DNA from: a bacterium
Lineage (GTDB): Bacteria; UBP18; UBA7526
NCBI GenBank assembly: GCA_030619985.1
Contig: JAUXAI010000048.1
Span: 1-9,861, forward strand
Direction of reading: 5' to 3'
Length of the DNA stretch: 9,861 nucleotides
The notes under the pieces were generated by a model, which was not told where the DNA came from, did no database searches, and saw nothing but the letters and a program-made list of their open reading frames with translations. The translations under genes and the position numbers were made by a program. Below, piece after piece: positions 4,797 through 9,184 of the stretch (its first letter is position 1; each line of letters starts with the position of its first letter).

Positions 4797-4860
4797 AAAT
4801 CACAAGCACCAAATCACAAATTACAAACAAATTCCAATTACCAAAATCACAATGACCAAA
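4797..4860. repeat. AAATTACAAATTCC-type repeat, left flank of the four-helix bundle gene
   Basis: An A/C-rich low-complexity stretch with repeated CACAAATTACAAA and AAATTCCAATTACC words, ending in ATGACC (4852-4857). It is inverted relative to the repeat at 5211-5280, which also reaches ATGACC when read on the minus strand. Together they bracket the four-helix bundle gene. Confidence 0.7.
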
Positions 4861-4867
4861 ACTTTGA

Positions 4868-5230
4868 CTACTTTGATTTATTAATTATTGAGGTAAATAT
4901 ATTCCTTAACTCTTGCGATTCCTTTATGAGAGTGTCTATATCCACTGTTTCATTAGGATTCGCTTCCTTTAAAAGTTCTAACCAATAACTACTTTCCTTA
5001 CATTCCTTTCTGGTAATCCTCATCCTATATACAAAGTCTTTCTTGCCTAAGGCTTCGTTCGCCTCTCTATAATTTGCTCCTACCGATCCAGAGGCACCTA
5101 TCAATTGGCCAATCAATCTTGTGTTTATTGGATTCTTGGGCAATCTTTTGCACAATCTAATAACATTCTTAGCAAAGTCTAAGGTTCTTTTCTCTAAGTC
5201 ATATCGTTTCTTGTTTGGGATTTCGGTCAT
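4868..5230 (-). CDS. Four-helix bundle protein, S23 / 23S rRNA-intervening-sequence family
   Basis: A 120-residue cytoplasmic all-helical protein of the S23/IVP family. Members were first noticed inside intervening sequences of 23S rRNA and also occur as free-standing genes; the related Avd proteins work with diversity-generating reverse transcriptases. Family signatures are the YDLEKRTLDFAKNVIRLCKRLPK start (10-32), the turn GASGSVGANYREANEA (45-60) and the helix KECKESSYWLELLKEA (75-90). It appears full length. Its own function is unknown; nucleic-acid binding and oligomerisation are inferred from the family. No Shine-Dalgarno sequence is visible before the ATG at 5228-5230, because the upstream bases are repeat sequence; codons 3-7 also match that repeat. 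It sits between the Xer recombinase and the nucleotidyltransferase gene, flanked on both sides by inverted AT-rich repeats, suggesting an inserted unit. No reverse transcriptase or rRNA is nearby. Confidence 0.9.
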   Translation of the reverse strand: MTEIPNKKRYDLEKRTLDFAKNVIRLCKRLPKNPINTRLIGQLIGASGSVGANYREANEALGKKDFVYRMRITRKECKESSYWLELLKEANPNETVDIDTLIKESQELRNIFTSIINKSK

Positions 5231-5280
5231 TTGAATTTGTAATTTGTTTGGGATTTGGAATTTGTAATTTGGAATTTAAA
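5211..5280. repeat. AAATTACAAATTCC-type repeat, right flank of the four-helix bundle gene
   Basis: A T/G-rich stretch made of TTTGTAATTTG and GGAATTTG words. The 13-mer TTGTTTGGGATTT occurs at 5244-5256 and again at 5211-5223, where it lies inside codons 3-7 of the four-helix bundle gene. The repeat therefore supplies the upstream region, the start codon context and the first codons. It is inverted relative to 4797-4860. Confidence 0.7.
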
Positions 5281-5304
5281 CTTTTTATCTTTCACCCTGT
5301 CTCC

Positions 5305-6998: not shown

Positions 6999-7475
6999 CT
7001 AATTTTTCGTGCTATCCAAAATGAGAGTGACCGGGCCATCGTTTTGAATCTCCAAGAGCATCTTTGCTCCGAATACCCCAGTTGCTACTTTGAGATTGCA
7101 TTCTCTCAAGAAGTTAATAAACTTCTCGTATAACTCTTCTGCCTTTTCTGGTTCTGCTGCCTGGGTAAAACTGGGTCTCCTCCCTTTCTTAGTATCCCCA
7201 TATAATGTAAACTGGGAGATGACTAAGGCCTCGCCCTCAATGTCCAGTAAAGAAAGATGAACCCCGCCCCTTTTCAAGGGGTCGGGGTTCATCCTATTCT
7301 TCTCATCCTCAAATATTCGCAGAGAGGAAACCTTGTCTGCCAAATACTTAGCATCTTCTTCCTGGTCATTCCTTCCTATTCCCAGGAGGATAACTATTCC
7401 CCGACCTATTTCTCCGACTATCTTTTCTCCCACAGAGACCTTTGCCTCTTTTACCCTTTGGATAACTGCTCTCAC
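6999..7475 (-). CDS. dtd: D-aminoacyl-tRNA deacylase with an extra 10-residue loop
   Basis: Removes D-amino acids (and glycine mischarged on tRNA-Ala) from tRNA, protecting translation in the cytoplasm. Family signatures are MRAVIQRV at the start, SQFTLYGD (87-94; the SQxTL motif), RRPSF and the cross-subunit Gly-cisPro motif in [11 protein letters not shown] (145-155; G147-P148). At 158 residues it is longer than the usual 145-150. Compared with E. coli DTD as I recall it, ten residues (64-73, [10 protein letters not shown]) are inserted between the conserved RMN and LSLLD; they are encoded by a near-perfect palindrome at 7256-7293. The catalytic motifs are intact, so the enzyme probably still works. 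The start is GTG at 7473-7475, sharing one base with the TAG stop of the ArsR gene, with AAAGGAAG upstream, which implies translational coupling. Confidence 0.95.
7256..7293. repeat. Palindromic in-frame insertion inside dtd
   Basis: Arms GATGAACCCCG (7256-7266) and CGGGGTTCATC (7283-7293) are perfect complements. Inside them CCCCTT (7267-7272) pairs with AAGGGG (7276-7281), leaving one unpaired base (7282) and a 3-base loop TTC: about 17 base pairs in 38 nt. Thirty of these bases (about 7257-7286) are extra relative to normal dtd genes, so the reading frame is preserved. Confidence 0.85.
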
Positions 7476-8420: not shown

Positions 8421-9110
8421 CTAAAGATAATTTAACAATTCTCTTACGCTGGAAATGATTAAATCCGGCTTTAATTCTTTGAAGTCTTCTTTTGTTTTCT
8501 TGCCGCTCAATACTGCTACGGTCTTCACTCCCACTCTCTTCCCCACTCTAATATCTATGGGATGGTCACCAACCATGATGGTTTCTTCTGGCTTACTTTT
8601 CAAAACCTTTAAGGCCTTCTCCAAACTATGGGGCTCAGGCTTAACTGGTCGAATGTCATCCCTGGTCAATAGAAGGTCATAGGCGAAATCGTTCTTACCC
8701 AATCCAATCTTTACCGCCTCTTTACAGTTTCGGGTAACAATTCCTATTCTTATTCCCTTCTCCTTTAATATCTTCAGAGTCTGCCCGGCGCCAGGAACGA
8801 CCTCTGCTTCTTGAGCGGCTGCCACTTCCCTCTTCCTTAAAAATCCCTCCGCTTCTTTATTAAACCTTTTTGCCTCTTCTGGGTTATGCTCCTTTAATTT
8901 CTCAGTTATTGTTTCCACCAATTCGATCAGAAAGAGGTCTTGGTAGAGAGTAGGGTCTACACCATACCTCTTCACTATAGAATAGACTTCTCGATAAATC
9001 TCCGGGAAGTTTAGATTCAACTGAACCAGGGTTCCATCAAAATCAAAAAGAACCGTAGTGATTTCTTTAAACCTAATCAAGATAGGCCTCACGTCGTTCG
9101 GCAATTTCAC
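8421..9110 (-). CDS. HAD-superfamily hydrolase, phosphoglycolate phosphatase-like
   Basis: A 229-residue cytoplasmic phosphatase of HAD subfamily I. Motif I is LFDFDGTLV with nucleophile D23 and acid/base D25. A helical cap domain covers about 30-95. Motif II is IVTRN (T126), motif III the lysine in RPVKPEP (K157), and motif IV MVGDHPIDIRVGKRVG (D182, D186). All catalytic residues are present. The closest general class is phosphoglycolate phosphatase/pyrophosphatase (Gph/PpaX), but the substrate cannot be assigned. I chose GTG at 9108-9110, which has AAGG six bases upstream; a GTG six codons in (9090-9092) lacks a ribosome binding site. The chosen ribosome binding site lies in one arm of a 13-bp perfect inverted repeat (9110-9122 with 9172-9184), which could fold in the mRNA and restrict translation. 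It is followed by the HIT gene. Confidence 0.92.
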   Translation of the reverse strand: MKLPNDVRPILIRFKEITTVLFDFDGTLVQLNLNFPEIYREVYSIVKRYGVDPTLYQDLFLIELVETITEKLKEHNPEEAKRFNKEAEGFLRKREVAAAQEAEVVPGAGQTLKILKEKGIRIGIVTRNCKEAVKIGLGKNDFAYDLLLTRDDIRPVKPEPHSLEKALKVLKSKPEETIMVGDHPIDIRVGKRVGVKTVAVLSGKKTKEDFKELKPDLIISSVRELLNYL

Positions 9111-9184
9111 CCCGCACCTTTTAAATATTCAGAATTTCTTGAATACTTAAATAATGCCTTTATGAATGCTAAAAAGGTGCGGGG
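9110..9184. repeat. 13-bp perfect inverted repeat covering the HAD gene start site
   Basis: CCCCGCACCTTTT (9110-9122) and AAAAGGTGCGGGG (9172-9184) are perfect complements separated by 49 bases. Within the spacer TATTCA (9126-9131) and TGAATA (9140-9145) form a second, nested inverted repeat. In the minus-strand transcript the downstream arm contains the AAGG ribosome binding site and the first base of the GTG start codon. I see no target-site duplication outside the arms. Confidence 0.8.

Follow-up and report, generated by a model that had tools for sequence, protein, structure and literature searches.

Rickettsia (RPE) and Wolbachia harbour palindromic elements that have inserted in frame in conserved protein genes and are crossed by an open reading frame (ORF) (PMC2229807, PMC10969869). 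RPE are given a length of 105–146 bp and an unknown target-site duplication (TSD) in PMC2229807, and a nuclease parent does not figure in the consulted parts of either paper. Known bacterial MITEs mostly have TA at their ends and are tied to IS transposases (PMC2229807). REP sequences are short GC-rich hairpins of 20–40 bp present in high copy (PMC3733652), and the REP/RAYT system employs a Y1 transposase (PMC2817692). Free-standing GIY-YIG homing endonuclease genes and the GIY-YIG ORFs in CPR rRNA insertions provide examples of a small ORF invading conserved genes, including 23S rRNA, with homing genes copying into one allele site by repair. The GC clusters of yeast mitochondria are short, palindromic and GC-rich within AT-rich genomes, and one of them lies in frame in var1; these clusters are organellar, and we know of no GIY-YIG parent for them.

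The locus set beside these systems here is a palindrome within the D-aminoacyl-tRNA deacylase gene dtd of a bacterium. The window, by which we mean the whole 9,861-nt stretch analysed, is contig C47 of a 1.25-Mb genome that is 84% complete, and it holds the following features:

6999..7475, minus strand: dtd, D-aminoacyl-tRNA deacylase, 158 aa, with the ten-residue insert as residues 64–73
7256..7293, strand not assigned: complete 38-nt palindrome, inside dtd
7262..7287, strand not assigned: 26-nt element core, CCCCGACCCCTTGAAAAGGGGCGGGG on the sense (minus) strand, two palindromic end arms with next to nothing between them
7288..7291, minus strand: TGAA (sense strand) retained from the 4-nt target duplication, part of the original dtd ATGAAT
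7258..7261, minus strand: other target copy, expected to be TGAA, reading TTCA on the sense strand and lengthening the palindrome
9110..9184, minus strand: second element of the family, 75 nt, CCCCGCACCTTTT..AAAAGGTGCGGGG, at the 5′ edge of a HAD-like gene (8421–9110)

The identity of dtd is given by a profile match to TIGR00256 (E 1e-53). The original prediction of a near-perfect 38-nt hairpin at 7256–7293 was right in sequence and coordinates: the plus strand reads GATGAACCCCGCCCCTTTTCAAGGGGTCGGGGTTCATC, which folds into 18 pairs interrupted by a bulge of 1 nt and closed by a loop of 3 nt. Folded within 71 nt, the hairpin reaches -36.4 kcal/mol compared with -17.8 +/- 3.0 for shuffles (z -6.2), a stability matched by 0 of 200 shuffles. 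A known RNA family was ruled out, as an Rfam search of the window returned no match, and plasmid homologs of the region were dropped after a single partial match. The same prediction had counted exactly ten extra residues, gained as 30 nt without breaking the frame, and both statements hold. Residues 64–73 are occupied in 0 of 51 diverse DTDs, although both flanks are occupied in all 51, and solved DTD structures display a gap at the same place; an ordinary loop of the protein family, named beforehand as the outcome that would count against an insertion, is not what the alignment reveals. The 26-nt core and a 4-nt duplication together add 30 nt, so that the frame of dtd is kept and ten residues are gained. 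In an AlphaFold model, the insert-bearing protein retains the DTD fold (mean pLDDT 91), with the insert region alone forming a loose, low-confidence loop (block 61–70, pLDDT 53).

The insert was followed through the source genome (G000) and the five others of its family, all that were found among its relatives; the genomes compared are 53–93% complete. G000 and G005 have the insert in common, at the same position and with 25 of the 26 core bases matching. The site is empty in G001, G003, G004 and the distant G006, which read ATG AAT CTY TCT with a single TGAA. G000 keeps TGAA on the left and has TTCA on the right; G005 has TTCA on the left and keeps TGAA on the right. The simplest history would be an insertion with direct duplication of TGAA, after which one copy changed to its inverse complement in each lineage, a replacement that hairpin-templated repair could yield. 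Loss of the direct repeat in this manner (TGAA/TTCA) would shield the dtd copies from precise slippage excision between repeats. A recent horizontal origin was rejected, given 80.7% identity between the two dtd genes and a tree that does not group them. With no special closeness between G000 and G005 in dtd, the patchy distribution implies losses or repeated insertion, of which we consider repeated independent insertion the less likely and several losses the better account.

The dtd hairpin represents the shortest form within a family of palindromic elements that is spread across the genome and has the ends CCCCGCNCC...GGNGCGGGG. The proposed genome search for its core retrieved the exact 26-nt sequence once, with no second full copy in the source genome, and its arm in dozens of copies. 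Pattern searches gave 63 matches (at most 2 mismatches) to the arm GATGAACCCCGCMCC versus 5 for the reversed control, and 79 to the right end versus 3. Enrichment of the arm extends to all six genomes of the bacterial family, each of which contains family members, and is near background in most other genomes. Using patterns and sequence stretches, a set of 89 non-redundant elements was compiled, 61 of them from the source genome, which bears out the expectation of a small repeated palindrome that tolerates in-frame insertion into genes. The compiled copies span 23–181 nt and possess the terminal inverted repeats (TIR) CCCCGCMCC/GGKGCGGGG, as MITEs do.

The second element of the window (9110–9184) has near-identical copies elsewhere in the genome and is itself without a TNAA duplication. 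Near-identical 75-nt elements at no fewer than four places (9110–9184, L022, L057, and L254) have common flanks, CTTG / TGAAATTGCCGAACG, and a larger repeat unit therefore travels with them. At two loci of G000 (L037 on C8 and L016 on C53), tRNA genes are bracketed by the same CCCCGCACC / GGTGCGGGG arms, also without TNAA duplication. Elsewhere in the window, a minus-strand ORF at 4868–5230 (flanks 4820–5295), of four-helix-bundle / 23S-IVS type from the look of its sequence, is flanked by the AT-rich inverted repeats AAATTCCAAATTACAAATTCC.. / ..GGAATTTGTTTGTAATTTGTG and resembles a small mobile ORF cassette.

Flanks and empty sites show that the family inserts into TNAA and leaves a 4-nt direct duplication. 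Identical 4-nt direct flanks border 63 of the 89 elements (shuffled mean 38.6, maximum 49), comprising TGAA in 51, TCAA in 8, TAAA in 3, and TGAG in 1 of a set gathered with search patterns biased toward TGAA; among elements with a left flank other than TGAA, 12 of 30 are duplicated versus 1.4 in shuffles (maximum 7). Orthologous empty sites were found by joined-flank searches. A 26-nt copy in a membrane-protein gene (L256) has empty counterparts in G001, G002, and G004, with surroundings 97% identical to the G002 empty site over 280 nt, and a 26-nt copy in lipA likewise has an orthologous empty site with a single TNAA. Relatives also retain empty sites with a single TNAA at the starts of galT, argD, tsf, and rplI. 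The tsf start codon is occupied by a 103-nt type in G000 and by a different 50-nt type in G002, G003, and G004, with none in G001. Target-site duplication, as in a MITE, is thus visible from the empty sites, with one of the two duplicates altered in the dtd copy. Every in-frame interior copy (dtd, lipA, the membrane-protein gene, and four more) has a length that comes to a multiple of 3 once the 4 nt of the duplication are added, and the smallest copies that bear the duplication measure 25–26 nt.

Start codons (ATGAA/GTGAA) are the usual location of TGAA-flanked copies, two thirds of which sit exactly on one. An ORF of at least 80 aa follows 34 of the 51 TGAA-flanked copies in the frame of a rebuilt start, this being an [G/A]TG made by the last element base plus the duplicated TGAA, and 0 in the other frames. 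The original ATGAA/GTGAA, often with a Shine-Dalgarno sequence, stays on the left of the element and opens a leader ORF (MNPAP...GAG) that spans the element, usually to a TGA stop overlapping the new GTG/ATG. Among 33 long copies, this leader is open and terminates precisely at the overlapping TGA in 24, compared with 1.9 expected, its frame contains 22 stops in 1274 codons compared with 136 in 1249 and 103 in 1246 for the other frames, and 25 of the 33 long copies have lengths equal to 1 modulo 3 (p 7.5e-7), statistics that overstate independence because the copies are related by descent. That many different lengths keep frame argues for selection on coupling. The right arm provides a Shine-Dalgarno-like sequence (GGAGG/AGGTG). 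A single conserved leader-peptide family was rejected, since most of the peptides have no Pfam match, GIY-YIG included, at E<10. The orthologous 124-nt leader elements of G001 (L217) and G005 (L277) differ at 8 of 132 positions, with dtd about 20% different.

One 130-nt copy retains the first part of a GIY-YIG ORF in truncated form (Pfam E 4e-4). Full-length elements of 270–310 nt occur in several distant lineages, where they carry one gene for a GIY-YIG nuclease of about 77–100 aa and in part display the same ends, TSD, and start-codon overlap as the short copies. G000 and G002 contain a 273-nt element, TCAA-CCCCCGCCCCCATTTT...GIY-YIG...AAATGGGGGCGGGG-TCAA (L290/L287), whose sole gene encodes a 77-aa GIY-YIG protein, and G002 has another GIY-YIG element at a start codon. 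G091 and G118, which belong to unrelated lineages, have an intact GIY-YIG ORF that runs from the old ATG of the host gene to an overlapping TGA (GTGA/ATGA overlap); the elements are delimited by CCCAGCACCTC or TCCAGCCCTTCC arms together with TGAA duplications. Arms of 14–23 paired bases surround the GIY-YIG gene in G293, G155, G056, G100, and G213, and arms of at least 14 appear in 0 of 57 control windows; the ortholog of the G293 site in G155 is without the element. Judged by sequence, L281, L290, and the elements of G091, G118, G293, G155, and G056 are candidates for the autonomous partner that shares its ends with a MITE; the arms enclose a GIY-YIG ORF in these full-length copies, and the dtd copy is arms only.

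Two GIY-YIG elements with GC-rich palindromic ends, L334 (G056) and L330 (G100), interrupt genes that we take from their sequence to be 23S rRNA, and no duplication was seen at either insertion. Many small GIY-YIG genes are without such ends. Other GIY-YIG genes of the family (L282, L283, and L285) lie beside different palindromic repeats (CACCCCGTAAA..TTTACGGGGTG; AGCCCTGCACYGG..CTGGTGCAGGGCT). Five further small GIY-YIG genes (L286, L289, L294, L339, and L332) abut tRNA genes, three of them next to tRNA-Ser-like sequence, which suggests a further niche for insertion. End pairing across six genomes was also used to look for other long elements, and the pairs retrieved were neighbouring elements around host genes.

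The short hairpins, that of dtd included, are best read as remnants of GIY-YIG elements, and the dtd hairpin very probably derives from a GIY-YIG mobile element as its minimal, non-autonomous MITE of 26 nt. The proposed full-length element would comprise about 270–310 nt, in which short palindromic ends rich in GC (consensus about CCC[C/A]GC[A/C]CC...) enclose a single small gene for a GIY-YIG endonuclease. Counting against this reading are the leader peptides, most of which have lost any match to GIY-YIG, the many small GIY-YIG genes without such ends, and the patchy distribution of the dtd insert. On the basis of gene content, the nuclease would cut TNAA with staggered ends and so drive transposition. 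The element would borrow the host initiation site for its nuclease and return a new start by stop-start overlap, with host expression surviving through termination-reinitiation coupling; such coupling would select for in-frame shrinkage until the two arms alone remain. Within coding sequence, minimal copies could then persist wherever their length and the 4 duplicated nucleotides add up to a multiple of 3. The elements probably form a class of their own among DNA transposable elements, about 300 nt long with a GIY-YIG gene of ~77–100 aa, palindromic ends, and TNAA targets, a start-codon specialist that decays in frame via leader-peptide elements to 26-nt hairpins that jump into conserved genes.

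In kind, the family is a MITE, and so far as the open-access literature goes it is previously undescribed: no precedent was found there for GIY-YIG in connection with palindromes, with TSD or MITEs, with candidate-phylum genomes, or with transposition and start codons. The resemblance to RPE raised in the original prediction stands for the general kind, a protein-coding palindrome or MITE inserted in frame in protein genes. It fails for length, the dtd copy having 26 nt and the family 23–181 nt, and the TNAA duplication, shorter members, start-codon placement, and GIY-YIG parent are not RPE features in the descriptions consulted; the hosts are unrelated as well. Correia/NEMIS, RUP, and ERIC are similar in their TIR, TSD, and non-autonomous copies, whose ends recur on a longer element that encodes an enzyme, whereas the dtd family has TNAA as target, ends in common with a GIY-YIG element, and duplicated copies as small as 25–26 nt. 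Homing genes offer a parallel in the GIY-YIG ORFs of G056 and G100, but the dtd family occupies many sites and has palindromic ends, a TSD, and non-autonomous remnants. The likeness to GC clusters is one of short GC-rich palindromes, apart from their organellar setting.

Could the palindromes instead be MITEs of an undetected DDE-type transposon, with the GIY-YIG gene a passenger repeatedly caught between the ends? We consider this unlikely, even though TIR with a fixed-length TSD are typical of DDE elements, the ends can face the target in both orientations (L258, the outer copy of L276, and L266), and the role assigned to the nuclease derives from gene content. The GIY-YIG gene is the only ORF between the ends and fills the element in several distant lineages, the leader ORF of short copies is framed MNPAP...GAG like the intact G091 nuclease ORF, and no longer element carrying another enzyme between such ends was seen among the loci examined. 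Domesticated translational control hairpins, selected at start codons for regulation rather than being selfish DNA, would account for the Shine-Dalgarno sequence in the right arm, the coupled leader ORF, and the strongly kept frame. This explanation is quite improbable in light of the patchy distribution among close relatives, the unlike elements found at the tsf start codon, several copies nested inside one another, the intergenic and interior copies, and the intact nuclease-bearing versions.

Very improbable is an IS200/IS605- or RAYT-type origin (Y1 HUH), in which a tyrosine transposase moves REP-like hairpins. Both REP/RAYT and the dtd family feature short GC-rich high-copy hairpins, here with an adjoining tetranucleotide, but REP/RAYT elements are extragenic and have a GTAG or CGTC tag; the GTAG tag is absent here, the duplication is genuine and varies together on both sides (TGAA, TCAA, TAAA), and both orientations are used, where IS200/IS605 or REP/RAYT elements would show no target duplication and a fixed orientation. 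The Y1 origin was rejected on finding no Y1_Tnp match in the six family genomes (53–93% complete), with 6 of 14 control genomes positive. A one-off quasi-palindrome from local template switching, the other origin first suggested, is scarcely credible for the insert, being refuted by dozens of family copies, the empty sites, the insert common to G005, and similar TSD-bearing 26-nt inserts in lipA and L256, and template switching plausibly explains only the outermost arm, where TTCA resembles a product of the adjoining TGAA and lies on opposite sides in G000 and G005.

The GIY-YIG element reading provides an insertion route onto conserved genes (argD, tsf, rplI, galT, dtd, and lipA) that does not destroy them, and it puts forward a candidate enzyme for palindromes that code for protein. 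Small GIY-YIG genes scattered across uncultured bacteria would gain a role as selfish elements, and gene finders can misread the leader peptides and displaced start codons that such elements create. If the 26-nt copies truly transpose, they would be, to our knowledge, among the smallest mobile DNAs, and the insertion of ten-residue loops into proteins would become a trackable evolutionary process.
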